From a virus: DNA of 28,502 bases. The stretch spans positions 1-28,502 of IMG/VR virus record IMGVR_UViG_3300025585_000136. The stretch is one strand, 5' to 3'. This document shows, one piece after another, positions 4,879 through 21,376 of this stretch (position 1 is its first letter; each line of letters starts with the position of its first letter). The notes under the pieces are model-generated. The model saw only the letters and a list, made by a program, of their open reading frames with translations. It had not been told where the DNA came from and did not search any database. The position numbers and the translations under genes are program-made.

Positions 4879-7173
4879 GTGGCTGAAAAACCTCGCGTAT
4901 CGTCCGAAGTGCAGCGTTGGCTAGACTGCATCGCTCAGTACGACCGCGAGTTCAAGAAGTGGGAATCGCGCACCGACCGAATCATCAAGCGCTACAAGGA
5001 CGACGGGCGCAAGGTAGACGACGGAACGGTCAAGTTCAACATCCTCTGGAGCAACGTTCAGACGCTGGTTCCGGCTGTTTTCTCCCGCCTTCCTCAGCCT
5101 GACGTAAGCCGGCGATTTCGGGACAACGATCCTGTAGGCCGGGTGGCGAGCCTGCTGCTAGAACGGGCGCTTGATTTCGAGATCAAGCATTACACCGATT
5201 ACGCCGAGTCTCTCAAATCGTGCGTGCTTGACCGCTTCCTCGGCGGCAGGGCCACGGCATGGGTGCGGTACGAACCGCATTTCACGACGCCTGAGCAGCA
5301 CGCGGACGGGCTCCAGGTCACTGAGGATGCCGAGGTAGAGGGCGAGACGGAGGAAGCCGAGGAGCTAGAGTACGAATGCTCCCCGGTTGACTACGTTCAC
5401 TGGCGCGACTTCGGCCACACGATAGCGCGGACCTGGGAGGAAGTGACTGCGGTCTGGCGCGTGGTCTACATGGGCCGGCAGGCGCTTGTCGAACGGTTCG
5501 GCGAGGACATCGGCAACAAGATACCGCTAGACGCGAGCCCCGAGGAACTGAAGCGTTCCAAGATGGCCGGCAGCACGGATCGGGATCAGGCGTGTATCTA
5601 CGAGATTTGGGACAAGAGTACCAAGTCGGCTTTCTGGATCAGCAAGAGCCTTGGCGAAGTGCTGGACGAACGTCCGGACCCGTTGCGGCTGGAGGGCTTT
5701 TTCCCCTGTCCGCGTCCGATGTACGCGACGATCAGCAACGAGTCGCTAGTCCCTGTTCCTGACTTCTATTTGTACCAGGATCAGGCCGTCGAGCTCGACA
5801 CGCTGGCGGACCGCATCGACGGGCTTATCCGGGCGCTTCAAGTCAAGGGCTGTTACGACGCGAGCGTTCCTGAACTGGCAAGGCTGTTCTCCGAGGGCTT
5901 TAACACGCAGATGATCCCGGTCAAGAATTGGGCTGCGTTTGCGGAAAAGAACGGGCTAGACGGGGCGCTGTCGCTTGTGGACCTTGCGCCAATCGCGAAG
6001 GCACTGGAACAGTGCTACCTCGCGATGCAGCAGGTCAAGCAACAGGTGTTCGAGATTTACGGCCTGTCGGACCTCGTGCGCGGCGCGACCGATCCCAACG
6101 AGACGCTCGGGGCGCAAGAACTCAAGGGGCAATACGCCAATCTGCGGCTTCGGCACATGCAGCACGAGGTTGCCCGGTTCGCGACTGACCTGCTGAAGAT
6201 CAAGGCGCAGATCATGTGCGGCTACTACCGGCCGCAGACGATTGCGACGATTGCCGCGGCTGCGCAGTTGTCGCCCGTGGATCAGCAGGTAATCCCGCAG
6301 GCCATGCAATTGCTGATGGGGTCGCGTGCGATGGACCCGGCAGCGCCGCAGGGGCCGAATCCGCTGCGATCCTTCCGCGTCGAGGTGTCGGCCGATTCGC
6401 TGGTGCAGATCGACGAGAACGCCGAGAAGCAGGGGCGCGTCGAGTTCCTGACGGCTGTGGGCGCCTTCTTGGACAAGGCGATACAGGCCGGCACGGTTGC
6501 GCCGCAGATGACTCCGCTCCTGATGGAGTTGCTCAAGTTTGGCGTGACGGGCTTCAAGGTCGGCAAGAGCATTGAAGGCAGCTTCGACGAGACAGCCGAG
6601 CGGCTCAAGCAGGCGTCGCAGCAGCCGCAGGGCATACCGCCCGAGATACAGAAGCAGATGCAGGAGGCGCAAGCGCAGTTGCAGGCCGAGTCCGAGCGGC
6701 TTACGCAGGAGCGGCAGAAACTGGAGGGCGAGCGCACGCAGCACGCGGTAGAGAAGATCGCGCTCAAGGCGGAGAAGGACGTGTTTGGCCTTCAGAAACA
6801 GGCGACAGAGCAGGCTCTCAAGAAAGAGGCCGAGGTCGAGGAAATGGGGCGCGGGTTTGAGCAGGAGCGGATGCGCATGGCCGAGGAAGGCGCGAAGGAA
6901 CGCGAAGGCGCTGTGCAGCAGGCTTACAAGGCTGTTGATACCGGCATGTCCGAGGTAGCGAAGATCACTCAGCAGCAAGTTCAGGTGGTCGAGCAGATGG
7001 CGGCGAACATCGTGGCGTTGAACGATGCCATAACCGCGCTGGCGCAGGCTGTAAAGGGCTCGAGGCCCGTCAGCGTAGACGTGGAGTCCGGGACGGATGG
7101 TCGGGCAGCAGCGCACCGGGTCAAGTACGGGGACGGCGAGGAGCGCGTCATTCCAATTCGGAGGAAGGCGTGA
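4879..7173 (+). CDS. Portal protein with long C-terminal coiled coil
   Basis: The portal is the dodecameric ring at one capsid vertex through which DNA enters and leaves. The 764-residue product directly follows terminase and fits podovirus-type portals: an N-terminal alpha/beta region (VKFNILWSNVQTLVPAVFSRLP near residue 50), an acidic insertion near residues 150-168, and a long helical body with LYQDQAVELDTLADRIDGLIRA and DPNETLGAQELKGQ. Residues ~580-720 are a Gln/Glu/Lys-rich coiled coil, as in the barrel of large podovirus portals. The start is a GTG with only a weak AGG just upstream. The stop overlaps the GTG of the next gene. Confidence 0.9.
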   Translation: MAEKPRVSSEVQRWLDCIAQYDREFKKWESRTDRIIKRYKDDGRKVDDGTVKFNILWSNVQTLVPAVFSRLPQPDVSRRFRDNDPVGRVASLLLERALDFEIKHYTDYAESLKSCVLDRFLGGRATAWVRYEPHFTTPEQHADGLQVTEDAEVEGETEEAEELEYECSPVDYVHWRDFGHTIARTWEEVTAVWRVVYMGRQALVERFGEDIGNKIPLDASPEELKRSKMAGSTDRDQACIYEIWDKSTKSAFWISKSLGEVLDERPDPLRLEGFFPCPRPMYATISNESLVPVPDFYLYQDQAVELDTLADRIDGLIRALQVKGCYDASVPELARLFSEGFNTQMIPVKNWAAFAEKNGLDGALSLVDLAPIAKALEQCYLAMQQVKQQVFEIYGLSDLVRGATDPNETLGAQELKGQYANLRLRHMQHEVARFATDLLKIKAQIMCGYYRPQTIATIAAAAQLSPVDQQVIPQAMQLLMGSRAMDPAAPQGPNPLRSFRVEVSADSLVQIDENAEKQGRVEFLTAVGAFLDKAIQAGTVAPQMTPLLMELLKFGVTGFKVGKSIEGSFDETAERLKQASQQPQGIPPEIQKQMQEAQAQLQAESERLTQERQKLEGERTQHAVEKIALKAEKDVFGLQKQATEQALKKEAEVEEMGRGFEQERMRMAEEGAKEREGAVQQAYKAVDTGMSEVAKITQQQVQVVEQMAANIVALNDAITALAQAVKGSRPVSVDVESGTDGRAAAHRVKYGDGEERVIPIRRKA

Positions 7174-7574
7174 ATACGTTGACGAAGTGGAATCTGAAGA
7201 TTGGGAGTGCGTTCCTTGGGCTCCAATTCGTCGCTACCGGACTGTATTCGGTGTTCGACACACAGACTCGGTTTTTCATGGCGCTGAGTCAGAACGGTAT
7301 ACAGATACAGGTCGGGCTGGGGTTGATGATTGGTGGCCTTTGCACGATCTACGGGGCGCTTAGGCCGTTGCGGTGTGTCAGGCACATTGGGCAGGCCCTT
7401 ATGTGGGTCACGGGGTTTTGGCTGGCGCTCGTATTCTTGATGATCGGGTATATACCCCCGGTTGTCACGCTGACGTTCATTGGTGGCCTGGGCGTGTTCG
7501 TCATCATGATGCATGACGTGTTGAACGGTCGAAAAGTGAGGGTAGCCCGTTATGGCGCTGTCACTGAGCAATGA
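7170..7574 (+). CDS. Small membrane protein with four predicted TM segments; holin candidate
   Basis: The 134-residue protein starts at a GTG in a GTGA overlap with the portal stop, with a strong GGAGGAAGG site. Hydrophobic stretches at about residues 11-28, 45-64, 74-93 and 97-115 predict four membrane segments, followed by a basic tail (GRKVRVARYG). No enzyme motif is seen. Tandem small membrane proteins in phage late operons are often holin/antiholin pairs, but no endolysin is recognised nearby, so the lysis role is only a hypothesis. Confidence 0.6.
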   Translation: MNTLTKWNLKIGSAFLGLQFVATGLYSVFDTQTRFFMALSQNGIQIQVGLGLMIGGLCTIYGALRPLRCVRHIGQALMWVTGFWLALVFLMIGYIPPVVTLTFIGGLGVFVIMMHDVLNGRKVRVARYGAVTEQ

Positions 7575-7950
7575 GCCCATTGTTGGCCCTGCGATCTATG
7601 TCGGCGGTTTGATTGGTGCGCTGGCTGAGATTCAGATGTTGTACCTGTCGAACCCGTTGTTGGGCTTCCTGACCTGCGGCGTGCTTGGTGGTCTGTCCGG
7701 ATGGGCCTTCGCTCTGGAGATGGGGAAGTTGGACCGGGTGGAATTCAGGCGGCATGTCTGCTTTGTTGCCAGACGGCTGATGCTTGGGGTTACGTTTGCG
7801 GTGATGGCGTGGATTGTTTGGCCGGTTGATACCGGAAAGTTGCCTTCTGGCGGGATGCTGACTACGGGACTGATGGCAGCGTTTCCGCTAGAGGTCGTGG
7901 CTGCGCTGAAGGATACGGCGATGGAGTTTTTGCGGAAAAGGATGGGGTAA
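7552..7950 (+). CDS. Small membrane protein; holin candidate
   Basis: The 132-residue protein overlaps the previous gene by 23 bases and starts at ATG 7552 behind a GAGGG site. Hydrophobic segments lie at about 10-30, 34-55 and 73-91, with a weaker one at 100-118. The C-terminus (ALKDTAMEFLRKRMG) is a short amphipathic basic tail, as in many holins. It pairs with the four-TM protein just upstream. Other possibilities are a superinfection or membrane-associated factor. No family name can be given with certainty. Confidence 0.55.
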   Translation: MALSLSNEPIVGPAIYVGGLIGALAEIQMLYLSNPLLGFLTCGVLGGLSGWAFALEMGKLDRVEFRRHVCFVARRLMLGVTFAVMAWIVWPVDTGKLPSGGMLTTGLMAAFPLEVVAALKDTAMEFLRKRMG

Positions 7951-8441
7951 TGGCGACGGGCGATACTCTCTGCGCGTTCTTCCCGCAGGACAACGAGCCG
8001 ACGACTAGCAATTACGCAACGCTCGACACGCGGAACAATCATCCGCTGCTCAATTTCGACACGACGACGCAGGAGTCTGCGATCTTCACGGGACTTCTGC
8101 CGCGCAACTATGCGGGCGGTGGGATCACGGTGTACGTGCATTGGACTGCGGCGACTGCCACGACTGGGACTATCGGATGGGATGTCGCTTTCGAGCGGAT
8201 GAGCGACTCGACGACCGATATCGATGCTGATTCGTTTGCGACCGCACAGACGATCACTGCTGCGACGGTTCCGGGGACGTCTGGTGTAGTTTCCGTTACG
8301 AACGTTGCCATCAGTAACGGTGCCAACATCGACAGCATAGCAGTAGGTGACTCGTTCCGGATCAGGATTCGCCGGGATGTGGCTAACGACACGGCAACGG
8401 GAGATGCGCAGTTGCTAGCGGTCGAGATGAAGGAAACCTGA
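7950..8441 (+). CDS. Beta-rich virion-associated protein, conserved in phages
   Basis: The 163-residue protein begins MATGDTLCAFFPQDNEP and includes ATLDTRNNHPLLNF and GLLPRNYAGGGITVYVHW. This pattern is one I associate with conserved structural-region proteins of podovirus-like phages, probably a beta sandwich on the virion surface. The start overlaps the previous stop (TAATG) and the stop overlaps the next start (TGATG). No catalytic residues are apparent. A head decoration or fibre-base role is inferred from position between portal and scaffold. Confidence 0.65.
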   Translation: MATGDTLCAFFPQDNEPTTSNYATLDTRNNHPLLNFDTTTQESAIFTGLLPRNYAGGGITVYVHWTAATATTGTIGWDVAFERMSDSTTDIDADSFATAQTITAATVPGTSGVVSVTNVAISNGANIDSIAVGDSFRIRIRRDVANDTATGDAQLLAVEMKET

Positions 8442-9160
8442 TGGCGCTAAGTTTCTCAGGGACGACGGACGCCTTTGATACGGGCGTCAGTACCGGGGCA
8501 AATTTCAGCACTGGTGATTTTACGCTCGCGGCATGGGTTACATCGTCGTCGTCCGGAACGGTTGTTGCCATAGGGAAAAACAGCGGGTCCGGGGATTCGT
8601 ATTGGTTTGGCCTCGCAGGTGGAAAGTTGAGTTGCAGCGTAAACGCGACGGTGACGGAAGTCGGCAACACGGTAAATGACGGGAATTGGCATTCCATCGT
8701 TGCTACACGCATCAGCGGAACGCTCACAATCTACTCGGACGGTACGGCTAGGAACAGCGGAACGGCCAACGGATCGGCTAGCCCTGGAAACAACTTGTAC
8801 ATCGCCAAGTTCGGTAGCGGCGCGGCGTTCAACTGGCCCGGGAGCATGGCTGAGGTTGCGGTCTGGTCTGTAGGGCTTGATGCGGCTGAGGCAGCTTCTC
8901 TTGGTAAGGGTGTGTGCCCTGCGTTGATCCGCACGGCTTCGCTGGTGGATTACTGGCCTCTGATTGGTCGCAACACGGTAGATAACGGAATCAAGGGGGC
9001 CGGCAGTGGTTCGTATGCTGGCAGTCCGGCGCGTGTGGACCATCCTCGCGTCATGTGGCGTAGGCGCAGGAATACGATTGCCATGGCTGCAGCGGCCGGT
9101 GGCGGTTCAATCATTCCGGTTCTCTATCGTCAGCGGCAAATGCAAGGGATGGCGGCATGA
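8441..9160 (+). CDS. LamG/concanavalin A-like lectin-domain protein
   Basis: The 239-residue product has a LamG-type jelly roll over residues ~1-175. The typical signatures are FTLAAWV, the NDGNWHSIVATRISGTLTIYSDG block and GSMAEVAVWSVGLDAAE. LamG domains bind glycans or surface proteins. A basic tail with WRRRRN and an alanine/glycine stretch follows (DHPRVMWRRRRN near residue 200), possibly anchoring it to the virion. Start and stop overlap its neighbours. It is likely a surface adhesion or decoration protein; the ligand is unknown. Confidence 0.8.
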   Translation: MALSFSGTTDAFDTGVSTGANFSTGDFTLAAWVTSSSSGTVVAIGKNSGSGDSYWFGLAGGKLSCSVNATVTEVGNTVNDGNWHSIVATRISGTLTIYSDGTARNSGTANGSASPGNNLYIAKFGSGAAFNWPGSMAEVAVWSVGLDAAEAASLGKGVCPALIRTASLVDYWPLIGRNTVDNGIKGAGSGSYAGSPARVDHPRVMWRRRRNTIAMAAAAGGGSIIPVLYRQRQMQGMAA

Positions 9161-9741
9161 CCATATACCTGAAGCAAAGCACGGCCTCGCAAGAGGTTCC
9201 GCTCGGTTACTTCGTGGACTCGACAGACGGGAACACGGAGGAAACCGCGCTGACGATTGCCAATACTGACATCAAAATCTGGAAGGCAGGAGCGACGACG
9301 CTGGCGAACAAGAACAGCGGAGGTGCGACGCACATCAGCAACGGTATCTACTACGCCGTTCTGGACGCGACGGATACCGACACCCTAGGCTCCATGGTCA
9401 TCTTCGTCCATGTGTCCGGCGCCCTAACGGTGCGATTGGAATGCGTCGTGCTAGCGGCGAACGTGTACGACTCGATCATCGGGGGCGGGGATCTGCTTGA
9501 CGTTCAAGTGACAACCACGGATCAGAACGCTATTGCCGATGCACTGCTCGGCCGGAACGTGTCGGGAGGGTCTAGCACTGGTCGCACGGTCAAGCAGGCG
9601 TTGCACTTCATTCGTAACAAGTGGGTTGTCAGTGGAGCGACGCTGACGGTCTACGACACGGACGACACGACTAGCAGTTGGACTGCTTCTGTTACCGGGA
9701 CGGCCGGCGCCGACCCGATTACCGGGAATGATCCTTCCTAA
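9157..9741 (+). CDS. Virion surface protein A with duplicated C-terminal module
   Basis: The 194-residue protein starts at an ATGA overlap. Residues ~1-115 are a beta domain opening with MTIYLKQSTASQEVPLGYF, a form common in phage fibre-like proteins. The last 71 residues, from NAIADALLGRN to the end, form a module also found at the end of the protein at 10817-11425. The module has a short helix (VKQALHFIRNKW) and a strand pair (TLTVYDTDD) and ends in a conserved GADPITGNDPS. Function is unknown. An adaptor or oligomerisation role for the module is inferred from its reuse. Confidence 0.65.
   Translation: MTIYLKQSTASQEVPLGYFVDSTDGNTEETALTIANTDIKIWKAGATTLANKNSGGATHISNGIYYAVLDATDTDTLGSMVIFVHVSGALTVRLECVVLAANVYDSIIGGGDLLDVQVTTTDQNAIADALLGRNVSGGSSTGRTVKQALHFIRNKWVVSGATLTVYDTDDTTSSWTASVTGTAGADPITGNDPS
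9526..9738 (+). repeat. Duplicated 71-codon module, copy 1
   Basis: This codes for residues from NAIADALLGRN to the end of surface protein A. It aligns without gaps to the module at 11210-11422, with 51 of 71 residues identical by hand count. The two copies flank the SGNH hydrolase gene. Confidence 0.85.
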
Positions 9742-10820
9742 TGTCTGTATCTGTCGCAGTCACTGACGCAAACTGGTTCTTCTCCCCGTACAACTGGAAT
9801 ATTTCGGGGGGAAATGCCACGGCCGTCAATGGTGGCGCGTACTTCAAGATCGGCTTTACTGGTACGTCCATCTCAATCAGTATCGACGTGTCGTCTATGG
9901 TCGCAATCGGCATGTCTGCGGGGAATTACCCTTACCTGCGCTACAGCCGGGACAACGGCGCGCAGACGTTGACCCAACTGACGAGCGGAACGACGGCAAT
10001 CACGTTTAGCGGTCTTTCTGCCGGTTCGCACACGCTCTACATGGAACTTGACGCGGGTTTGTGGGAGGACTCCGGGACGGACCGATGGACCACTCCTGCG
10101 AACTGCTGGAAGATCACCGGGGCGTTGCTGGACGACGGGGCCGCTACAGAGGCGCCTGTGACTCGCACTGGTCGCATGCTGTGGTACGGGGATTCGATCA
10201 GCGAAGGCATCCGGGCGAACAATGCCACATCGCAGCCGACGAACCAGAACGGTTATGAGTCTGTCCCTCAGTTCATCGCTCCTGCGTTCAACTGCGAGCT
10301 TGGGAACGTGAGTTTTGGAGGGCAAGGATTTGTCAGCGGCTACGGTTCTATCCCCGCATTCAACACGGCGTATTCAAGCATCTACAACGGGGCATCTCGG
10401 CTGTCTGGTGGCGTTCTGCCGGTTGACCCGGACTACGTGTGTGTCTGGCATGGGGCAAACGGAAGCCCGACGGCAACAAACGTCAAAACGTCCCTGACGA
10501 ACATGCGGACGATAGCTCCGACGGCATCGGTGTTCATTATCGTGCCTGTTGGCGGGTACAACTCGTCGGCGATCACCACGGGGTTCAACGACTACCAGAC
10601 CGCCACGCCCGATGCGGATTGCTACCTCATCAACCTAGGGTCTACGTGGACGCCTGGGCTCTCGTCGTTCGGATCGGCAACGCAGCAAGCGATTGACGGG
10701 CTGCATCCTCGCAGCAACTGGAATGCGCGGATCGCATGTGCGATCACGCAGGCGATGCAATTGGCGCTCGGCGGTGGTAGCACCGGGGGCGTATTGACTG
10801 GCGGAAGGCTTGCCCGATGA
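9741..10820 (+). CDS. SGNH/GDSL hydrolase (carbohydrate esterase-like), virion-associated
   Basis: The 359-residue protein has an N-terminal beta domain (residues ~1-140, rich in Ser/Gly/Thr) followed by a complete SGNH core. Block I is WYGDSISEG with nucleophile Ser152, block II is the GGQGF glycine, block III is GAN with Asn240, and block V is DGLHP with Asp319 and His322. This layout matches two-domain carbohydrate acetyl-esterases, in which the N-terminal jelly roll helps bind sugar. Such enzymes in phages usually deacetylate surface polysaccharide. It overlaps both neighbours by 1-4 bases. Catalysis is well supported; the substrate is not known. Confidence 0.85.
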   Translation: MSVSVAVTDANWFFSPYNWNISGGNATAVNGGAYFKIGFTGTSISISIDVSSMVAIGMSAGNYPYLRYSRDNGAQTLTQLTSGTTAITFSGLSAGSHTLYMELDAGLWEDSGTDRWTTPANCWKITGALLDDGAATEAPVTRTGRMLWYGDSISEGIRANNATSQPTNQNGYESVPQFIAPAFNCELGNVSFGGQGFVSGYGSIPAFNTAYSSIYNGASRLSGGVLPVDPDYVCVWHGANGSPTATNVKTSLTNMRTIAPTASVFIIVPVGGYNSSAITTGFNDYQTATPDADCYLINLGSTWTPGLSSFGSATQQAIDGLHPRSNWNARIACAITQAMQLALGGGSTGGVLTGGRLAR

Positions 10821-11425
10821 GCGTCTATCTCGGCGATTTTCCTACGGGAGCGGTCGTTTACCACAAGTGGGAGACGAACGCGGCCGACGGGTCATCCGTG
10901 GCCCGAGGTACGGTGGGGACGGTCCGCATATACCGCAACGATTCGACGACGCAGCGCAGCAGTTCTGCCGGGGTAACAGACAGCGCGGAATTCGATTCCG
11001 TTACCGGCATTCAGGCGCTTAAAGTCGATATGTCGGACAACACGGACGCCGGCTTCTACGCTGCGGGCTATGAGTATCAGGCGGTTCTAGTGGGAGCGGT
11101 GATTGATGGCGTCACGGTGAATCACGTTATCTGTTCTTGGAGCTGTCAGCGGGCGGGCGGGGTGCTGGCTACGTTGCTGGCGGGGGTGTCCCTGACCTCG
11201 ACGGAACGGAACGCAACGGCGGACGCAATCCTTGGCAGGAACGTGGCGGGTGGTTCTAGTACCGGAAGGCTGGTCAAGGAGGCGCTCTACTTCCTGCGGA
11301 ATAAGTGGGCGGTTTCCGCCGGGACATTGACTGTATACGGCACGGATGACAGTACGCCGGCATGGACCGGGACCGTGACGAATACGGCTGGCGCTAACCC
11401 GATAACGAGCAACGACCCAGCATAG
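10817..11425 (+). CDS. Virion surface protein B with duplicated C-terminal module
   Basis: The 202-residue protein starts in an ATGA overlap with the hydrolase stop. Its N-terminal ~130 residues (MSVYLGDFPTGAVVYHKWET...) form a beta domain with no obvious identity to protein A. The last 71 residues are the shared module (NATADAILGRN...GANPITSNDPA). Together with protein A and the hydrolase it probably makes a surface complex. No catalytic motif is seen. Confidence 0.65.
   Translation: MSVYLGDFPTGAVVYHKWETNAADGSSVARGTVGTVRIYRNDSTTQRSSSAGVTDSAEFDSVTGIQALKVDMSDNTDAGFYAAGYEYQAVLVGAVIDGVTVNHVICSWSCQRAGGVLATLLAGVSLTSTERNATADAILGRNVAGGSSTGRLVKEALYFLRNKWAVSAGTLTVYGTDDSTPAWTGTVTNTAGANPITSNDPA
11210..11422 (+). 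repeat. Duplicated 71-codon module, copy 2
   Basis: Gap-free counterpart of the module at 9526-9738, at the end of surface protein B. The GRNV(S/A)GGSSTGR and NDP(S/A) ends are the best conserved parts. Confidence 0.85.
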
Positions 11426-11426
11426 C

Positions 11427-11924
11427 ATGGCGAACGGCTACACAGGACTGATGGCGCCGTGGATTGGTGGCGCTGCAAAGCCGGGGGCGGGGCAGGCGGG
11501 ATATCGTGGGTTTTTCGCATTCTGGATGGGTGGCGGCTCTCGGTATTCGGTAGCAAGCGATACTGGCCCGATATCCATGGCTGCGTTCTGGATGGGTGGT
11601 GCGGGGGATGATGGCGCGTCGCCTGCCGTTCTGATCGACACGCACGACGGCCTCAAGAAAAAGCGCGATTGGGGCAAGGAACGCAGGGAAAGGGACGACC
11701 TCCGGAAGCAGATACTAGAGGCAATCGACGGCCCCGAGATACGGGAAGCGGTTGCGGAGTACATAGAGCCGCAGAAAGCCGACGAGGCTCCAAAGCCGAT
11801 TGCGCAGCGGTTAGATTATGCGCGGCTGGTGCAGGACATCGAACGATTGGAGCGGGTGCGTGCGCTGATCGTTAAGCGGCAGCAGGACGAGGACGACGAC
11901 GAACTAATTATGGTGTACCACTGA
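11427..11924 (+). CDS. Protein with Phe-Trp-Met-Gly-Gly repeats, unknown
   Basis: The 165-residue protein has three hydrophobic-glycine motifs: PWIGG (11-15), FWMGG (32-36) and FWMGG (54-58), about 21 residues apart. The second half is charged and helical (KKKRDWGKERRERDDLRKQ and ERLERVRALIVKRQQDEDDDE). The N-terminal half could bind other virion proteins or membrane; the C-terminal half could be a coiled coil. No known enzyme signature is seen. It lies one base after the stop of surface protein B. Confidence 0.6.
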   Translation: MANGYTGLMAPWIGGAAKPGAGQAGYRGFFAFWMGGGSRYSVASDTGPISMAAFWMGGAGDDGASPAVLIDTHDGLKKKRDWGKERRERDDLRKQILEAIDGPEIREAVAEYIEPQKADEAPKPIAQRLDYARLVQDIERLERVRALIVKRQQDEDDDELIMVYH

Positions 11925-12208
11925 TGCGCTGGATACAAGACCCGAAAACGCTGGAACTAGTGCCGGCTACAGACTTCACCCGGGACGTGGATGCGCCCTT
12001 CGTGTGGAACGACATCCAGCCGTACCGAAGCATGGTAGACGGTTCCATTATCGGTAGCCGTTCGACGCACCGTGAGCACCTGCGCGCACACAACTGCATC
12101 GAAGTAGGAAACGAAACGAAGTACCTTAAGCCCAAGGAAGTCAAGCCGCCGCCTGGGCTAAAGGAGACGTTGATCCGGGTGGCTAACGAAAAGCTAAGGA
12201 GCAGATGA
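11924..12208 (+). CDS. Conserved small phage protein (RSxHRExLRxH motif)
   Basis: The 94-residue protein contains FVWNDIQPYRSMVDGSIIGS, then RSTHREHLRAHNCIEVGNE. This signature recurs in small proteins of the head region of many podovirus-like phages. Its role is not established; a head-assembly or scaffold-linked role would fit. The C-terminus is basic. It starts at a one-base overlap with the previous stop and ends in ATGA/TGATG with the next gene. Confidence 0.65.
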   Translation: MRWIQDPKTLELVPATDFTRDVDAPFVWNDIQPYRSMVDGSIIGSRSTHREHLRAHNCIEVGNETKYLKPKEVKPPPGLKETLIRVANEKLRSR

Positions 12209-12576
12209 TGGCACTTGCAAAGGAAATCATGGGCGGGGGCCTGTCGGCTGCGACTGCTCAGGCAATCGGCGGCGGGGTGCAGACTGGCCTGACGGCTACC
12301 GGGTCGGCGATCACGGATGCGCTGCAACTGACGGCTAGCAACGTGCAAATGGGCACGGTTGCTGCGTCCACGGGCGTTCTTCTGCCGAACGGCGTGATCG
12401 GCGACGAGGTGCTGATCTACAACGGCGGCGCGAATGCCCTGTCGGTTTACCCGCCGACTAGCGGGCAAAGCATTAACAGCGGTTCTGCGGGGGCTGCGTT
12501 CAGTGTCGCGGCAACGAAAACCGCCACGTTCAAGAAGATCACTTCCACCCTCTGGATTGCCCTTCTCGGAGCCTAA
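12208..12576 (+). CDS. Small beta-rich head decoration-like protein
   Basis: The ~122-residue protein can start at ATG 12205 or 12208. The AGGAG at 12197-12201 is better spaced (6 bases) from 12208, so that start is chosen. The body (ALQLTASNVQMGTVAASTGVLLPNG, then VIGDEVLIYNGGANALSVYPP) is a common phage beta domain of decoration or fibre-trimer type. It ends three bases before the scaffold gene. A virion-surface function is inferred. Confidence 0.65.
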   Translation: MALAKEIMGGGLSAATAQAIGGGVQTGLTATGSAITDALQLTASNVQMGTVAASTGVLLPNGVIGDEVLIYNGGANALSVYPPTSGQSINSGSAGAAFSVAATKTATFKKITSTLWIALLGA

Positions 12577-13644: not shown

Positions 13645-14640
13645 ATGGCTTTTGCCAACTCGTCCATTACGGACATCATCGCGACCACGATTCAGCAGCG
13701 CAGTGGCGAACTCGCGGACAACGTCACCAACAACAACGCGCTTCTCAAGCGCCTGAAGGCTCGCGGCAACGTGCGGCCGTTCGGTGGCGGTAACGTGATC
13801 CTTGAGGAACTCGCCTACAACGACAGCAGCACGAACAACACGAACAGCTATTCCGGTTACGAGACGCTGAACATCGCGCCGAACAGCCCGATTAGCGCGG
13901 CGCAGTTCAGCATCACTCAGTACGCGGCGGCAGTCTCCATGTCCGGTCTGGAAATGCTCCAGAACGCGGGCAAGGAACGCATCATCGACCTGCTGGAAGG
14001 CAGGATCATGGTGGCCGAGGCGCAACTGCAAAACCGGATCGCTGGCGACATCTACCTCGACGGCACCGGCAACGGCGGCAAGAACCTGACGGGTCTGGCT
14101 GCGGCGGTTTCGACCACTCCGACGACCGGCACGTATGGCGGCATTGACCGCGCCACGTGGACGTTCTGGCGGAACGTGGGTTACTCGGGCGTGACGAACG
14201 GCGGCGCGGCCGTGTCTGCGAGCAACATTCAGCAGTACATGACGGCGCTGGCGATCCAACTCGTCCGTGGCACTGACAAAGCCGACCTGATCGTGGCTGA
14301 CAACAACTACTTCGCACTGTACGTGAACTCGCTGCAAGCCATCCAGCGGATTCAGGGCGCGGAGGAAGGCGCTGCCGGCTTCGCGTCGCTCAAGTTCTAC
14401 GGGGGCGGGCAGTCTGCCGACGTGGTGCTCGACGGCGGTATCGGGGCGAACGCCACGGCAAACCGTATGTGGTTCCTGAACACTCGGTACATCTTCTTCC
14501 GGCCGCACCGTGACCGGAACTTTGTGCCGATTGGCGGGGAACGGCAGTCCGTCAACCAGGATGCCATCGTCAAGCTGATCGGCTGGGCGGGCAACATGAC
14601 CACCTCGGGCGCGCAGTTCCAGGGCGTCCTCTCGGCATAA
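13645..14640 (+). CDS. Major capsid protein
   Basis: The 331-residue protein begins MAFANSSITDIIATTIQQRS and has PFGGGNVILEELAY, the FSITQYAAAVSMSGLEMLQN segment, and FRPHRDRNFVPIGG near the C-terminus. These match the HK97-fold capsid protein family of podovirus-like proteobacterial phages. It starts behind a clear AGGAG. No N-terminal delta domain is evident, consistent with a separate scaffold gene. It would form the icosahedral shell. Confidence 0.92.
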   Translation: MAFANSSITDIIATTIQQRSGELADNVTNNNALLKRLKARGNVRPFGGGNVILEELAYNDSSTNNTNSYSGYETLNIAPNSPISAAQFSITQYAAAVSMSGLEMLQNAGKERIIDLLEGRIMVAEAQLQNRIAGDIYLDGTGNGGKNLTGLAAAVSTTPTTGTYGGIDRATWTFWRNVGYSGVTNGGAAVSASNIQQYMTALAIQLVRGTDKADLIVADNNYFALYVNSLQAIQRIQGAEEGAAGFASLKFYGGGQSADVVLDGGIGANATANRMWFLNTRYIFFRPHRDRNFVPIGGERQSVNQDAIVKLIGWAGNMTTSGAQFQGVLSA

Positions 14641-14651
14641 GGAGCGATAAC

Positions 14652-15140
14652 ATGCCTACGTTTAGCACTCTCACGATGGCGGGCGTCAGCATTACCGACG
14701 TGTACGCCGCTCCCGCGCCGTTTGCGGTCGGCACCAGCACGAACCTCTCGGACGGTGGCGAAGCGATCTTCGTCAAGGCGCTGTCCGAGATTTCGACCTA
14801 CGCCTATGCGCTGATCTACGTAGATGGCACGGCGCAGATGGCGACGACTACCCTTGCGGCAACCTCTCGCCGTGGTGGGTGGGCGCAAGCGTCGATCCCC
14901 TCGGGCTACTACGGGTGGATTCAGGTCAGCGGCTCGCCGAAGGGCAACCTCGCGGCGAACTGCGATGACAACGTGCCTCTCTACACAACGGCAACCTCTG
15001 GCGTGCTGGATGATGCCACGGTGTCCGGTGGCCTGATCGGCGGATGTACGTCTACGGTGACGATCTCGAACGCGACGGCGGTTACCCTGCTGGTGGCTCG
15101 CGGGCAGATGGTCATCAACGGCGCGACGCCGGGGGCCTAA
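14652..15140 (+). CDS. Capsid decoration/head fibre-like protein
   Basis: The 162-residue beta-rich protein lies 12 bases after the capsid gene, behind AAGGAG. It is rich in Thr, Ser, Ala and Gly, with a conserved-looking RRGGWAQASIPSGYYGWIQVSG segment and no catalytic motif. Phage genes directly after the capsid gene often encode decoration or stabilising proteins. It is a possible target of the glycan genes that follow at once. The function is inferred from position and composition. Confidence 0.65.
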   Translation: MPTFSTLTMAGVSITDVYAAPAPFAVGTSTNLSDGGEAIFVKALSEISTYAYALIYVDGTAQMATTTLAATSRRGGWAQASIPSGYYGWIQVSGSPKGNLAANCDDNVPLYTTATSGVLDDATVSGGLIGGCTSTVTISNATAVTLLVARGQMVINGATPGA

Positions 15141-15142
15141 GC

Positions 15143-15928
15143 ATGACCCTGCGCCAGACGAATTACCGGGCAACGGAGCGTATGCTCCCGCCGCCCGCCG
15201 ACCCGAGGGACAACATTCGGGCGAGTCTGGCGCGGGGCCTGCCGGAGTTTTCTCCTTCCCTGTTCCCGCACGACGGCCATGCCGTCATTTGCGGGAGCGG
15301 GCCTTCTCTTGTTCAGTTCGCATCAAAGATTCAGGCTGAACGGGACAACAGAAGGCCCATATGGGCAGTCAAAGGCGCTCACGACTGGCTGTGTGAGCAA
15401 GGGATAGAGCCTGACGTGTTTGTATCCTGCGAGGCCAAGCCAAGGCTTGAGAACGTGCAGCGCAAGAACAAGCGGACGCTCTACCTGTTGTCGTCGCGGT
15501 GTTCTCCTGAACTGTTCGATTGGCTGTCTGACTGCAACGTGATGATGTGGCATTCGTATAGCGACCGGGAAGCGCCGATGGAAGAATTGGTTGGGGCGCA
15601 ACTGGTAGGGGGTGGCACAACCTCCGGGCTGCGTGCGGTGACCCTTGCGTGGCTGTCGGGCTTTGCCAAATTCATCCTCTACGGCTTCGATTCATGTCTG
15701 GCCGAGGACAAGCGTAAACGCTACGACTCGGGAATTATGCAGGACGCGCAGATCGTGGATCGCATCTGTGGTGGGCGCAAGTTCCTGTGTAACGGGGCGA
15801 TGGCGATGCAGGCCGACGAATTCCAGGAGTATTACAAGTTGCTCCCGGGGATCACGTTTGACATCAAGGGTGACGGCCTGCTGGCGGCGATTGTGCGGCA
15901 ACGCAAAAAGATGGGGCTACCGGCGTGA
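15143..15928 (+). CDS. DUF115/MptE-like protein, glycosyltransferase-like
   Basis: The 261-residue protein starts at ATG 15143; an in-frame extension from 15044 overlaps the decoration gene and is rejected. It has the GSGPSL motif at 51-56 (AVICGSGPSLVQF), and FVSCEAKPRLENVQ, then TSGLRAVTLAWLSGFAKFIL and YGFDS. These are characteristic of the DUF115 (MptE-like) fold, which also occurs in flagellin glycosyltransferase-type Maf proteins. Enzyme activity here is unproven. It is coupled by GTGA to the next gene and is the first of a four-gene glycan cassette. Confidence 0.75.
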   Translation: MTLRQTNYRATERMLPPPADPRDNIRASLARGLPEFSPSLFPHDGHAVICGSGPSLVQFASKIQAERDNRRPIWAVKGAHDWLCEQGIEPDVFVSCEAKPRLENVQRKNKRTLYLLSSRCSPELFDWLSDCNVMMWHSYSDREAPMEELVGAQLVGGGTTSGLRAVTLAWLSGFAKFILYGFDSCLAEDKRKRYDSGIMQDAQIVDRICGGRKFLCNGAMAMQADEFQEYYKLLPGITFDIKGDGLLAAIVRQRKKMGLPA

Positions 15929-16806
15929 GGGTGTCATTCATCCACGGCGGCGGAAAGACGATGGCGAGCTATCGCTATCGGGCGGCTATCCCTGCGAGCG
16001 TAATCGGGGCGTCGCTGAACGAACTAGATGCAGACGTTCTGATATTCGCAAAGCCGATGCCGGCGGAACTTGAGCTTGCCATGCGAGCGGTACAGGCCGG
16101 CAGGGCCGTGCTGGTGGATTTCTGTGACGATCATTTCGAGCGGTTCCACTGGTACAAGCGATTCAGCCGGCTGGCCCACGTAGCGACGTGCCCTACAGAG
16201 GCAATGGCGCGCATCGTCAAGCATCACGACTTCCTCGCCGATCCGCAGGTCGTTCCGGACCCGTATGAGTACCCTGAGGAAGCGCCGCACTGCGCCGGGG
16301 ATGAGGTGCTCTGGTTCGGGCACAAGACTAACCTTCCTTCGCTTGAACGCGTGCGTAGGCACATCCGCAGGCCGCTGACGGTGGTCAGTAACGCGCCCGG
16401 CACTGTCCCTTGGTCGCATGACTCCATGCCGGAGCACTTTGCGAAAGCGGACATCGTAATCATCCCGGCAACGGCCGGGTACAAATCGCCTAACCGGGCG
16501 GTCGAAGCAATCCGGCAGGGTTGTTTCGTGGTGGCGGAATGGCATCCGTCGATACAGCACATCCCGGGCATCTTCGTCGGGAACATTCTTGAGGGGATCG
16601 AATGGGCAATCCAGAACCCGAGCGAGGCCAACAGCCGGACGCTACGGGCGCAGCAGTATGTGACGGAAAGATACTCGCCTCAAACAGTGGGCGATGCGTG
16701 GAAGAGCCTTTGCGAGAAGGCGAGCTCGCGCTCAATCTCGGCTGCGGGCACTGCATATGGCCCGGGTGGGTCAACGTTGACGGCTTCGACGAGCGCGCAG
16801 ACGTGA
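15925..16806 (+). CDS. GT4-like glycosyltransferase
   Basis: The 293-residue protein starts at a GTG overlapping the previous stop. Its central and C-terminal part carries the GT-B fold layout: LVDFCDDHFERF, LWFGHKTNLPSLERV, LTVVSNAPGTVPWS, and the donor-site region ADIVIIPATAGYKSPNRAVEAIRQG ending with FVVAEWHPSIQHIPGIF. The N-terminal MRVSFIHGGGKTMASYRYR is the substrate-side domain. The usual GPGTP or Ex7E signature is only partly seen. The last ~35 residues overlap the methyltransferase gene in another frame and look unrelated to the family. Donor and acceptor sugars are unknown. Confidence 0.75.
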   Translation: MRVSFIHGGGKTMASYRYRAAIPASVIGASLNELDADVLIFAKPMPAELELAMRAVQAGRAVLVDFCDDHFERFHWYKRFSRLAHVATCPTEAMARIVKHHDFLADPQVVPDPYEYPEEAPHCAGDEVLWFGHKTNLPSLERVRRHIRRPLTVVSNAPGTVPWSHDSMPEHFAKADIVIIPATAGYKSPNRAVEAIRQGCFVVAEWHPSIQHIPGIFVGNILEGIEWAIQNPSEANSRTLRAQQYVTERYSPQTVGDAWKSLCEKASSRSISAAGTAYGPGGSTLTASTSAQT

Positions 16807-17216
16807 CTGCCGACCTGCTGAAATTGCCGTATGTGGATGGCGCGGTTGATCGCATCGCGGCAATTCATGTGCTGGAGCACTTCTACCTGTGGGATGCCCG
16901 GAAGGCGCTCAAGGAATGGCTGCGGGTGCTAAAGCCTGGTGGCAGGCTGACCATCGAATTGCCGAGCATGGACGCGGTATTCGGGCACATCGGGGCGAGG
17001 ATGCGCAAGGGCGAGATGCCGAGCGCGACGTTTTCATGGCTGCCGATTTGGGGCGACCCTCGGCATGAGAACCCTGCAATGACTCACAAGTGGGGTTACT
17101 TCCGGTCGGACGCCAAAAGCATGCTGACAGAGGCGGGATTCACGGACGTGACCATCCAGCCGGCGCGGTATCACTTCCCTACGCGGGATATGCGCTGCGA
17201 GGGGGTGAAGCCATGA
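16698..17216 (+). CDS. Class I SAM-dependent methyltransferase
   Basis: The best start is a GTG at 16698, giving 172 residues; an ATG at 16602 would add 32 residues. From the GTG, SAM motif I is LNLGCG at residues 12-17, the acidic loop is VNVDGFDERADVTADLLKLP, followed by IHVLEHF and LRVLKPGGRLTIELPS. It matches Methyltransf_11-type enzymes. The start overlaps the glycosyltransferase reading frame by 109 bases, an unusually long overlap in this genome. The stop overlaps the next ATG. A sugar O-methyltransferase role fits its neighbours but is inferred. Confidence 0.8.
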   Translation: MEEPLREGELALNLGCGHCIWPGWVNVDGFDERADVTADLLKLPYVDGAVDRIAAIHVLEHFYLWDARKALKEWLRVLKPGGRLTIELPSMDAVFGHIGARMRKGEMPSATFSWLPIWGDPRHENPAMTHKWGYFRSDAKSMLTEAGFTDVTIQPARYHFPTRDMRCEGVKP

Positions 17217-17869
17217 TTCGCGTCTTTGCCGGGCGGGATATCCGGGAGTCTCGCGGGTGGGTGGTATTCGCCGAGTCCCTGTTTGCCAACACGAAGGAAC
17301 CCGTAAGCCTCGCGCCCCTCTCGGGCGAGCAAAGGGACGGAACGAATGCGTTCACCTATGCGAGATTCCTCGTGCCGGAACTGTGCGACTACAAGGGTTG
17401 GGCGATCTTCGCTGACGGCTCCGACATGATGCTGCGGGCGGATATCGCGGAACTGTATGACCTTCGGGACGAGTCGAAGGCCGTACAGGTCGTGCAGCAC
17501 GACTATCAGACGAAGTACAAGCGCAAGTACGTGGGCACTCAGATGGAGGCTGATAACGGTAGTTACCCTCGCAAGAACTGGTCTAGCGTTGTGCTGTGGA
17601 ACTGCGCGCATCCTGCAAACGGCATGGTGACCGCGAAGTTCATCGAACAGTACGGGAACCAGATGCACCGATTTTTCTGGTTGGAGCGCGACGAGATAGG
17701 AGCGTTGCCGATGGGCTGGAATCATTTGGTGAGAGAGCAGAAGCAAGACCCGGCCGCGAAGCTGGTTCACTTCACGCTCGGCATCCCGGCTTTCGAGTAC
17801 TACGCAGAGGACGAGTTTTCCGACGAATGGCGTTACTACCACGCTCGCGCCAACATGGTCGCGGCTTAG
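17213..17869 (+). CDS. GT8-like glycosyltransferase
   Basis: The 218-residue protein starts at an ATGA overlap; a longer in-frame reading from 17090 lies inside the methyltransferase and is rejected. The metal/nucleotide-sugar motif is AIFADGSDMMLRADI near residues 64-78 (a D-x-x-D pair). Further on are RKNWSSVVLWNC, RDEIGALPMGWN and a C-terminal LVHFTLGIPAF histidine region, all typical of GT-A enzymes related to GT8. It is likely to use a UDP-sugar. The acceptor is unknown; capsid or tail protein, or host glycan, are the options. Confidence 0.75.
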   Translation: MIRVFAGRDIRESRGWVVFAESLFANTKEPVSLAPLSGEQRDGTNAFTYARFLVPELCDYKGWAIFADGSDMMLRADIAELYDLRDESKAVQVVQHDYQTKYKRKYVGTQMEADNGSYPRKNWSSVVLWNCAHPANGMVTAKFIEQYGNQMHRFFWLERDEIGALPMGWNHLVREQKQDPAAKLVHFTLGIPAFEYYAEDEFSDEWRYYHARANMVAA

Positions 17870-17877
17870 GAGAAATC

Positions 17878-18489
17878 ATGCTTGCATCAGACGCGCAGAA
17901 CACTGAATTCCTCGGGGCGTATAACCCCGATTCGCGGCTCTCGGTCACGTTCTACAACCGGCCGATCCAGAACCATTTCAAGAGTTCGAAAGAGGGGCGC
18001 CCGATCTACGAAGATATGACGTTCGTCAAGATTTTTGTTCCCGGAGATTCGACGACGGTCATAGATACGGTCGTGGACGAGAGCCACAAGGCGCGGTTTC
18101 CCATGCAGTGGGCGCACTTCCAGAACACGCACGGGGCCGACGGGCTTACCATCGGGACGCCTATCACGCAATGGCCGGCGATCACTGCTGCGCAGGCCGA
18201 GGAACTGAAGGCACTGAAATTCGCCACTGTGGAACAGGTAGCGACGGCGAGCGACGCGCAGATTGCCCGGATCGGAATGCTCGCAGGGATGGCGCCCCAC
18301 GCCTTCCGGGACCGCGCCCGTGCGTTCCTGCTCGCTGCCAAGGACTCGGCACTACCGCAGGCGCAGGCCGAGGAACTGAGGAAGAAGGACGAACAGATTG
18401 CAGCTTTGCAAGCGCAGATGGCTGAACTCGCCAAGACGGTTGAAGGGCTCAAGCCCAAGCAGGAAACTCTGTCGGTCAAAAAGGGGTAG
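17878..18489 (+). CDS. Conserved virion-region protein with C-terminal coiled coil
   Basis: The 203-residue protein starts behind TAGGAGAAATC at ATG 17878; an in-frame extension from 17596 is a shadow within the glycosyltransferase gene. The N-terminus MLASDAQNTEFLGAYNPDSR, then LSVTFYNRPIQNHFKS, and GRPIYEDMTFVKIFVPGDS is a conserved block seen beside capsid genes in podovirus-like phages. The middle includes a short helical repeat region, and residues ~165-200 are a coiled coil (QAEELRKKDEQIAALQAQMAE). Its role is not known. Confidence 0.7.
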   Translation: MLASDAQNTEFLGAYNPDSRLSVTFYNRPIQNHFKSSKEGRPIYEDMTFVKIFVPGDSTTVIDTVVDESHKARFPMQWAHFQNTHGADGLTIGTPITQWPAITAAQAEELKALKFATVEQVATASDAQIARIGMLAGMAPHAFRDRARAFLLAAKDSALPQAQAEELRKKDEQIAALQAQMAELAKTVEGLKPKQETLSVKKG

Positions 18490-18492
18490 TAA

Positions 18493-19401
18493 ATGACTAC
18501 CATGCTCGCGCTGGTGCAGCAGGCTACTGCGGAGATGGGGATTCCGGTCCCCGCCACGGTTGCCGGCAACACGTCGCAGGACGTGATTCAACAGTTGGCC
18601 CTGCTCAACGCGGTCGGCTACGAACTCCAGCGCGAGTATCAATGGCAGAACTTGCTTGTAGAGTACCGATTCACCACTCAATACCTGACGACGACCGGGA
18701 CGTGGACGACCGCAGCGGCGACGGTCACGGGGATTCCGAGTACTGCGACTTTGGCGGCTAGTACCTGGATGGCGACCGGGACCGGGATCAACAACGACAC
18801 GTACATTCAGTCGGTAGACTCTGCTACGCAGGTAACCCTGTCGCAAACGCCTAGCGCGGCTGGGACTGCTGCTACGATCACGTTCGCGCAAACGAAATAC
18901 ACGATGCCGACCGATTTTGACCGGCTGATAGATCGTACTCAATGGGACAAGTCGAAACGATGGGAGATGCTCGGCCCTGAGACGCCGCAGCAGTGGCAGT
19001 GGCTCAAGTCGTCGTATATCTCAACTGGTCCTCGGATTCGGTGGACGCGGATGGGCGGGTATTTCCAGATATGGCCGGCGATTGCGGCAAACGAGTATCT
19101 CGGGCTTGAGTACATCAGCAAGAATTGGGTACTGGCTGCTGCTGACGTAACGCCCAGCAAGTCCTCGTTGACCGTCGATACCGATACCTGCATCTTCCCG
19201 GATCGGTTGATGGTGCTTGGCTTGAAATTGAAGTATTTCGAGATCAAGGGCTTCGATACTACGGCTATCTACCGGGATTACATGATGCAAAAGGACATCG
19301 CCAAAGCGAATGACGGCGGAGCCAAGATTCTGAGCATGGCGCCTCGGGATTCGCAGGTGCTTATCACTATCGCGCAGGTTCCGGACAGTGGATACGGATG
19401 A
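18493..19401 (+). CDS. Head-to-tail adaptor protein (probable)
   Basis: The 302-residue protein has an N-terminal helical part (LLNAVGYELQREYQWQNLL), a Thr/Ala-rich inserted beta region near residues 65-130, and later IWPAIAANEYLGLEY and KYFEIKGFDTTAIYRDYMMQKDIAKAN. This matches the adaptor/gatekeeper class (P22 gp4 or T7 gp11 type) that joins the portal to the tail nozzle. The inserted beta region could be an Ig-like surface domain. It is directly followed by the nozzle-like gene. The name rests on layout and synteny, not on an exact family match. Confidence 0.65.
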   Translation: MTTMLALVQQATAEMGIPVPATVAGNTSQDVIQQLALLNAVGYELQREYQWQNLLVEYRFTTQYLTTTGTWTTAAATVTGIPSTATLAASTWMATGTGINNDTYIQSVDSATQVTLSQTPSAAGTAATITFAQTKYTMPTDFDRLIDRTQWDKSKRWEMLGPETPQQWQWLKSSYISTGPRIRWTRMGGYFQIWPAIAANEYLGLEYISKNWVLAAADVTPSKSSLTVDTDTCIFPDRLMVLGLKLKYFEIKGFDTTAIYRDYMMQKDIAKANDGGAKILSMAPRDSQVLITIAQVPDSGYG

Positions 19402-20966
19402 TGCTGGCATCGCTACAGCGTAGCAGGGCACAGGGGGCGCAGCGCAAGCGGTCGATATCCTCGACTCTACCCGCTCCTATCGGCGGGTGGAATGCTCGGG
19501 ATTCGGTGGCGAACATGCCTCCGACCGATGCTGTCACGCTAAACAACTGGTGGCCGACCCCGACAGATGTTCGGCTTCGGGGAGGATATACGCGCTGGCT
19601 GACGGGCATCAGCGGTCAGGTTGAAACGCTGATGAGCTATGCCGGGGCCGCTACTACCAAAATGTTTGCGGCGGCTGGAACGGCGATCTACGACGCGACG
19701 ACTACAGGCGCGGTCGGGGCTGCGGTCGTCAGCGGCAAGACGAATGCGCGGTGGCAGTCCCAAAACATCACGACGGCGGGCGGGAACTATATGTACGCCG
19801 TCAACGGGGCGGATTCGCCGCTGCTGTACGACGGGACGAACTGGACGGTAATAACGGGTGTTTCTGTACCGGCGATTACCGGGGTTACGACCAGCACGTT
19901 TAGCGATGTGCTGCTGCACCAGAATCGTCTGTGGTTCGTGCAAAAGAACACGCTGAAGCTGTGGTATCTGCCGGTCATATCGGTAGGGGGGGCAGCGGCC
20001 GCGCTTGACCTGTCGTCCGTGGCTACGTTGGGTGGCTACATCGTATCGATCCTGTCGTGGACGATAGACGCGGGCCTAGGGGTGGACGATCACCTTGTGG
20101 TTGTCACCAGCCGTGGCGAAGTCATTGTGTACCGGGGGAACGACCCTTCGGCGGCGGGGACGTTTGCCCTGGTGGGCGTGTGGCAGATCGGTGCTCCTGT
20201 GGGTACTCGGTGCCTGATGAAGTACGCCGGGGACTGTCTGGTGGTCTGTCAGGACGGGGTCTACCCGCTTTCTGGAGCTCTACAGTCCAGCCGTACTAAT
20301 CCAAAAGTCTCGATTACGGACAAGATACAGTTTGCCGTGAGCGAGGCTGTTACGTCGTATGGGTCTAACTTCGGGTGGGAATTGTTGTACTACCCGAAAC
20401 TGAATGCCCTATGGCTGAATGTTCCGGTGGCCGAGGGTAACAATCAACAGCAGTTTGCGATGAACACGATTACCCGGTCATGGACGCAGTTCACCGGATG
20501 GAATGCGAATTGCTGGACGCTGTTCAACGATGAGCCGTTTTTCGGTGCGAACGGGTTCGTCGGGAAAGCGTGGTCCGGTGCTTCTGACAATGCAGGGGCT
20601 ATAGCGGCGAATGCCCTGCAAGCGTTCAACACGTTCCGGAATCCTGCTCTCCTGAAACGTGTGACCATGCTGCGCCCGATCTTCCAGACGAACGGGGCGC
20701 CGGCTATTCAGGTTGGGACAAACGTCGATTACAGCACGACGGACACGACTTCGCCCCTTGCGTACTCAGGGACCGCCACAGGCGCCTGGGGTAGTGGGTT
20801 GTGGGGTAGTGCGACGTGGGGCTCGGGGCTCAGCCTGCTGAACCAGTGGCAGGGCGCTACGGGGCTTGGCTATGCCATTGCTCCCCGGGTCAAGGCTACC
20901 GCCAGCGGGCTGGATGTAATATGGTCGTCTACTGATATCGTGATGGAGCCCGGAGCGATTCTGTGA
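19398..20966 (+). CDS. Tail nozzle-like beta-propeller protein (probable)
   Basis: The 522-residue protein overlaps the adaptor by 4 bases. It begins with a short basic segment and PAPIGGWNARDSVANMPPTD, AVTLNNWWPTPTDVRLRGGY, which is characteristic of tail nozzle proteins. Repeated blades with YLPV, VVVTSRGEVIVYRG and DCLVVCQDGVYPL suggest a beta propeller. Near residues 463-478 are tandem WGSG-type repeats (WGSGLWGSATWGSG). It is the counterpart of P22 gp10 or T7 gp12 by position. No enzymatic motif is seen. Confidence 0.7.
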   Translation: MMLASLQRSRAQGAQRKRSISSTLPAPIGGWNARDSVANMPPTDAVTLNNWWPTPTDVRLRGGYTRWLTGISGQVETLMSYAGAATTKMFAAAGTAIYDATTTGAVGAAVVSGKTNARWQSQNITTAGGNYMYAVNGADSPLLYDGTNWTVITGVSVPAITGVTTSTFSDVLLHQNRLWFVQKNTLKLWYLPVISVGGAAAALDLSSVATLGGYIVSILSWTIDAGLGVDDHLVVVTSRGEVIVYRGNDPSAAGTFALVGVWQIGAPVGTRCLMKYAGDCLVVCQDGVYPLSGALQSSRTNPKVSITDKIQFAVSEAVTSYGSNFGWELLYYPKLNALWLNVPVAEGNNQQQFAMNTITRSWTQFTGWNANCWTLFNDEPFFGANGFVGKAWSGASDNAGAIAANALQAFNTFRNPALLKRVTMLRPIFQTNGAPAIQVGTNVDYSTTDTTSPLAYSGTATGAWGSGLWGSATWGSGLSLLNQWQGATGLGYAIAPRVKATASGLDVIWSSTDIVMEPGAIL

Positions 20967-21376
20967 ACCTGTGCCAAGACAGTCGGCGGGTTGGTGAATG
21001 GGTGGCAAAGCGGACTGGCGGGCAGTATCGCGAAGGCTCGCAGGCCATCGGGCTTGAGGATGGCGGGTATGTGGTAGCGGGGGCGTTGTTTGACGGGTGG
21101 AACGGCGCTAGCGTGATGGCGCATGTTGCGGCAGATAAGGTCAACCGCGAATGGCTTTCGATGATCCACTGGTATGCGTTCTCGCAGTTGGGCGTGAACT
21201 GCGTCATCGGGGTTGTGAGTAGTGCGAACGGGAAAGCGCTTCGGTTTGACGAGCATCTCGGATTCAGAGAACAGTGCAGGCTGAAAGACGCCTGTACCGA
21301 TGGGGACATGGTTATCATGACGTTGCGCAAGGAAGATGCGCGTTTTTACAAGGAGCAGGCAGATGGGCAAACCTAG
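20963..21376 (+). CDS. GNAT-family acetyltransferase
   Basis: The 137-residue protein starts at a GTG in a GTGA overlap with the nozzle stop. The GNAT pattern is seen in GASVMAHVAADKVNREWLSMIH (acetyl-CoA strand and helix region) and the C-terminal GVVSSANGKALRFDEHLGFREQCRLKDA block typical of N-acetyltransferases. GNATs of this form occur in podovirus tail clusters, where the target is unproven. It could modify a virion protein, a host protein or an amino sugar. Its start overlap and location imply late expression. Confidence 0.75.
   Translation: MNLCQDSRRVGEWVAKRTGGQYREGSQAIGLEDGGYVVAGALFDGWNGASVMAHVAADKVNREWLSMIHWYAFSQLGVNCVIGVVSSANGKALRFDEHLGFREQCRLKDACTDGDMVIMTLRKEDARFYKEQADGQT

Follow-up and report, generated by a model that had tools for sequence, protein, structure and literature searches.

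Predicted glycosylation genes in the head operon of Mx8-type phages are exchanged together with a putative capsid decoration gene

What do genes for sugar-modifying enzymes do in the head operon of a phage, and which molecule do their products act on? Glycosylation of phage virions is known in few cases, and its acceptors are hard to predict. We addressed this question in a 28.5-kb IMG/VR fragment (28,502 nucleotides, hereafter the window) from a podovirus that resembles Myxococcus phage Mx8. A preliminary description had proposed that a DUF115/MptE-like protein, two glycosyltransferases, and a methyltransferase encoded at 15143-17869 build a methylated glycan on the capsid, tail, or decoration protein. 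The four open reading frames were found at these coordinates, all on the positive strand, as were the motifs GSGPSL, LNLGCG, and ADGSD by which their families had been recognized.

The enzyme genes lie in the late head operon, between a decoration gene and the homologue of Mx8 p50, and all genes discussed in this paragraph are on the positive strand. The left border of the module is the gene for the Mx8-type major capsid protein, or MCP (13645-14640; phrog_9953, 5e-108), whose product is 52% identical to its Mx8 counterpart. It is followed by the gene for a long decoration protein of the Mx8 p49 family, decoL (14652-15140; 162 aa). The p50 homologue (17878-18489; phrog_20268, 1.3e-16; 30% identity to Mx8 p50, 6e-22) forms the right border in the window, and the adjoining tail protein gene, corresponding to Mx8 p51 (18493-19401; phrog_6013, 2.4e-42), served as a backbone control. 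The window and Mx8 have the same gene order, MCP, decoration, p50, p51, p52. In Mx8 and Mx9, the head operons likewise run MCP, decoL (p49), p50, p51, but enzymes between the decoration gene and p50 are absent.

The four genes are coupled to one another, as had been noted. The decoration gene stops at 15140 and the DUF115 gene (15143-15928; 261 aa) starts at 15143, after a gap of 2 nt. The latter overlaps the gene for a GT-B (GT4-like) glycosyltransferase (15925-16806; 293 aa) by 4 nt (GTGA at 15925), and an overlap of the same size (ATGA at 17213) joins the methyltransferase gene (16698-17216) to that for a GT8-like, GT-A glycosyltransferase (17213-17869; 218 aa). The GT4-like and methyltransferase frames share a long overlap. 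No convincing promoter or terminator was found inside the cassette, where consensus scans gave no more hits than in shuffled sequences, and the p50 start at 17878 is preceded by a good ribosome-binding site.

The DUF115 protein matches PF01973 (Maf_flag10/MptE-like; 1.1e-17, above the cut-off); an NCBIfam search returned no informative name. When a profile of 16 relatives was compared with the PDB, it matched the flagellin O-glycosyltransferase Maf of Magnetospirillum magneticum (5mu5) at 1.6e-14, the archaeal HPPK 8sd5 at 1.1e-5, and bacterial alpha-2,3/8-sialyltransferases at 0.015. The AlphaFold model (pLDDT 86) has a Maf-like fold: in the Foldseek search that the preliminary description had recommended, 5mu5 ranked first (2.1e-9) and HPPK second, with mammalian sialyltransferases at about 2e-3. 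The alignment covers only the central Maf domain (5mu5 residues 263-432), which resembles the sialyltransferase Cst-II (PMC11339370). Maf O-glycosylates flagellin on Ser/Thr with nonulosonic acids (PMC11339370). The phage protein shares the DUF115/Maf_flag10 domain with Maf, but has 261 rather than 666 residues and lacks the three-domain architecture of N-terminal Rossmann-like, central, and C-terminal helical parts. Whereas Maf is associated with flagellin, the phage gene lies in a late operon that contains no flagellin, behind capsid and decoration genes in all 87 of the loci described below, and its product, unlike Maf, has GT4-like, GT8-like, and methyltransferase partners, either fused to it or encoded after it.

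Membership in the same Pfam family, together with the second rank of 8sd5 in both fold and profile, would also suit an HPPK/MptE-type pyrophosphokinase, in which case the gene set might make a small molecule or a nucleotide modification. Both comparisons favor Maf, however, and the partners of the protein, to which it may also be fused, are glycosyltransferases. We regard this explanation as very improbable.

Among the other families proposed, the methyltransferase is firmly placed and the GT8-like protein has good support at the family level, whereas the GT4-like assignment of the window protein is weak. Alone, this protein matches Pfam GT-B families at 0.007, below the curated cut-off; its relatives match Glyco_transf_4, Glyco_trans_1_2, and Glyco_trans_1_4, with a best value of 2e-4. 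An SPNRxxEA..GCF motif is conserved in the family, whose profile matched no solved structure in the PDB. The methyltransferase belongs to class I of the SAM-dependent enzymes, with a Methyltransf_11 match of 1.1e-10 (42.4 bits against a cut-off of 21.2), a GxG motif, and a match to phrog_6636 at 1.4e-9. Its frame is open from an ATG at 16602. Judged by third-position GC, which is 0.53 at 16602-16697 and 0.76 from 16698, an N-terminal extension from 16602 is unlikely to be coding, and the GTG at 16698 is the likelier start. The GT8-like protein of the window matches PF01501 at 0.0025, below the cut-off, and phrog_28018 at 4.6e-32; seven of eight relatives match PF01501 (best 4.9e-9), and the family profile matches WbbM (0.0012) and the GT8 enzyme 5gvv (0.008) in the PDB. 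The DxD motif is found in the relatives and takes the variant form DGSD in the window.

Gene fusions place the enzymes in one pathway. In at least 44 relatives, DUF115 and GT4 form a single protein; a 440-470-aa form joins DUF115 to a methyltransferase, and a 655-aa form joins it to both a glycosyltransferase (phrog_1962) and a methyltransferase, in the order GT-DUF115-MT. Since DUF115 also occurs alone, it is the core of the set; GT8 is an optional member. The place of the GT8-like gene in the module varies, as it can lie upstream of MCP or separate DUF115 from GT4 (L343, L418; L370, L404). In L013 (7235-7972) and its relatives, which have the DUF115-GT4 fusion, a divergent second DUF115 copy ends the cassette.

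Although decoL has no match in Pfam, its AlphaFold model (pLDDT 82) has a cement-like fold. The best PDB matches in Foldseek were chain G of the cyanophage Pam3 capsid, the capsid stabilizing protein of TW1, the Sf11 capsid, and the head fibre base of phi29. The modeled fold and the position of the gene next to MCP identify decoL as a predicted capsid cement or decoration protein. Its relatives include Mx8 p49, whose annotation reads "major virion structural protein"; by analogy, decoL is expected to be present on virions.

We evaluated how the cassette is distributed among related phages. A tblastn search of 50,697 phage records with the DUF115 and GT4 proteins gave no match, and a scan of IMG/VR with a single-sequence DUF115 pattern found nothing. 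Therefore, capsid proteins were taken as bait, so that loci were gathered without regard to the enzymes; a small number of loci reached through the GT4 protein were included as well. The interval from MCP to p50, here called a slot, was collected from IMG/VR, phage, and GTDB genome records and was read with profiles built from the first set of loci. Out of 253 complete slots, 87 contained both decoL and DUF115, and 36 contained decoL without DUF115. The others had a short decoration gene (27), another decoration gene or an unread one (50), or no decoration gene (53). Thus, all 87 slots with DUF115 had decoL, and none of the 130 slots without decoL had DUF115. The 253 rows include close relatives; a thinned set of 124 rows gave 37 with decoL and DUF115, 27 with decoL alone, and 60 without decoL, with no exception to the pattern. 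Three distant cassette bearers from metagenome-assembled genomes (L269, L330, and L332) also have the long decoration type.

The linkage is strict in one direction only. The first 80 loci had suggested a two-way rule by which decoL always occurs with the cassette, which we rejected because phages of the Mx8 clade carry decoL alone. With 36 of 123 decoL slots, Mx8 included, lacking the cassette, decoL does not depend on it everywhere. Scans from the enzyme side with DUF115 and GT4 alignments gave the same linkage: 42 of 42 new DUF115 loci and 16 of 16 new GT4 loci follow MCP and decoL. These 58 loci are those with enough upstream sequence among the closest of several hundred matches, so more distant DUF115 relatives may behave differently. 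The dispersed, unlinked homologues that would have spoken against the preliminary description were not seen among these loci, and recurrence in many relatives shows that the cassette is not a chance arrangement. Contigs with an Mx8-type capsid came from metagenome-assembled and other genomes of many proteobacteria and other hosts. The nearest named genome, a contig of Pandoraea iniqua, has a short decoration protein and no cassette. In the literature on DUF115/MptE proteins in phages, mostly open-access papers, we found no description of such a cassette.

The decoration gene and the enzymes were replaced together. On the MCP tree, gain or loss of the cassette is seen 11 times. In the six independent pairs on well-supported branches, decoration type and cassette shift in the same direction in 3.8 on average and in opposite directions in none, too few pairs for a sign test to reach 0.05 (median p, 0.125). 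In three close pairs with and without the cassette (L076/L035, L055/L032, and L084/L066), DNA homology stops at the MCP stop codon or at most about 20 bases away and returns at the p50 gene or at a gene of the family that we call C2. Between these breakpoints, the long decoration gene plus the enzymes in one phage is swapped for a short decoration gene in the other; in L084/L066, the swap also includes C2. The functional unit should start at 14652, with the decoration gene, rather than at 15143 as first proposed.

Such a pattern could arise if the site between MCP and p50 were simply a recombination hotspot and decoL and the cassette were functionally unrelated passengers. Genes of the HNH endonuclease type lie exactly between MCP and the decoration gene in L024 (8879-9334), L091 (8945-9436), and L087 (4805-5269), two of which were tested and match HNH_3 at 3e-8 and 7e-8, and the site accepts other cargo, such as the holin/endolysin of BUCT555 and the C2 and C6 genes. 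A mere hotspot, however, does not account for the absence of the enzymes from all 130 slots with other contents, for the co-divergence described below, or for enzymes that are conserved and fused rather than decaying. We find this explanation distinctly unlikely. The HNH genes at the module breakpoint might nevertheless drive the swapping.

The sequences of decoL and DUF115 diverge together. Their pairwise identities correlate at 0.67, and the partial Mantel correlation given MCP is also 0.67 (p = 0.001). In the controls, decoL and the tail protein correlate at 0.07 given MCP, MCP and tail distances correlate at 0.92, and DUF115 and MCP distances correlate at 0.19.

These numbers also bear on the possibility that the cassette glycosylates another virion protein, such as MCP, p50, or a tail or fibre protein, and that the decoration gene merely travels along. 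There is a precedent in mycobacteriophages Che8 and Rita, for which PMC11256854, citing Freeman et al. (2023), mentions glycans on the major capsid proteins. In the phages analyzed here, however, presence of the cassette is not mirrored in the MCP and tail sequences. Phages with very similar MCPs can differ in whether they have it (L076/L035 and L055/L032), and DUF115 hardly tracks MCP. Modification of another protein would also leave the constant long decoration type unexplained. We therefore judge it unlikely.

A different target would be the host surface (LPS or capsule) or free decoys, whose modification might, for instance, keep out superinfecting phages. In favor of this alternative, phages commonly carry glycosyltransferase genes for surface conversion. 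The cassette, however, is strictly coupled to a virion gene in a late operon, and its position is fixed in all relatives. Surface-conversion genes have no need to be swapped with a decoration protein. A flippase or membrane enzyme is absent from the cassette, none of whose proteins has the strongly hydrophobic 19-residue stretch typical of a membrane enzyme. A role at the host surface is quite improbable.

The explanation that we consider fairly probable is that 14652-17869 forms an exchangeable unit whose Maf-like enzyme, together with its partners, O-glycosylates the capsid decoration protein. The proposal that the genes form a glycan pathway for a virion protein is clearly strengthened, and of the three acceptors suggested, the decoration protein is the one to which the comparative data point: the enzymes come and go with decoL, share its divergence, and are produced alongside it. 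Joint movement of adjacent genes need not mean that their products act on each other. In the proposed scheme, the DUF115 protein would act in the cytoplasm as a Maf-like enzyme and would transfer the first nucleotide-activated sugar to Ser/Thr of newly made decoL. This sugar would probably come from the host pool. That no gene for sugar-nucleotide synthesis was recognized in the 28.5-kb window speaks against the scheme. The GT4-like and GT8-like enzymes would then lengthen the sugar, and the methyltransferase would cap or methylate the sugar, rather than a protein. Modified decoL would finally join the head as an acceptor displayed on the capsid surface, creating a sugar coat that recombination could change. 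Shielding, stability, and attachment to surfaces are candidate benefits. It is also quite possible, if somewhat short of probable, that the Maf-like enzyme works only with its own decoL and that the cassette is exchanged whole, switching the head coat and leaving the rest of the particle unchanged.

The sequence of decoL itself contains a suggestive pointer to its role as acceptor. Alignment columns 125 and 142 (numbered by the window decoL, which has S125 and T142) are mostly Ser/Thr in proteins that occur with the cassette and rarely so in those without it. L095 and L096, the only cassette-less decoL proteins in the capsid clade of the window, have Ser/Thr at neither column, and exceptions to the pattern are L028, L084, L269, L330, and L332. 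The combined Ser and Thr fraction is 0.21-0.22 in decoL with the cassette and 0.16 in decoL without it; kinship confounds both this difference and the pattern at the two columns. As a separator of decoration types, this fraction was discarded, the short decoration protein having a value of 0.235.

The proposed system can be compared with several known ones. Maf acts on a multicopy surface protein, as the phage enzyme is proposed to do, but in the phage the modified protein would be a capsid decoration protein rich in beta structure. As here, phage-encoded glycosyltransferases of Che8 and Rita are proposed to decorate the head; the account of these phages in PMC11256854 reports a modified MCP and describes no swap of a decoration gene, whereas in the Mx8-type phages a Maf-like enzyme is tied to one decoration family. 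The Manatee Spring phages ctDrO704 and ctTUS972 resemble the window in having glycosyltransferase and methyltransferase genes between the capsid and tail/adaptor genes, and the GT8-like protein of ctDrO704 is 39% identical to that of the window. These two phages were not recovered by the search with Mx8-type MCP, and DUF115 is absent from the annotation shown for them.

A module that keeps enzymes and probable acceptor together through inheritance and exchange allows the acceptor to be named from sequence alone, as a testable prediction. If correct, this prediction would carry the Maf family beyond flagella to the capsids of viruses, provide small enzyme-substrate pairs for O-glycosylating proteins, and suggest that the outer head surface is under selection in environmental phages.

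Other accessory genes occur in and around the module. The C2 (117-127 aa) and C6 (about 275 aa, the end weakly resembling BclA_C) families are often found between the cassette and p50, as in L074 (10413-10796) and L076 (11263-12090), but occur with or without the cassette; they are possibly further head decorations. In the window, the p52 homologue is followed by a GNAT-type acyltransferase gene (20963-21376; phrog_4470, 1.3e-33), and several cassette-less relatives have such a gene annotated in this position. A second accessory zone, at 7170-12576 between the portal and scaffold genes, encodes a protein with a Laminin_G_3/ConA-like lectin domain (8441-9160; 9.5e-18), and the product of 9741-10820 weakly resembles a GDSL-like esterase and also matches a neck passage protein family.
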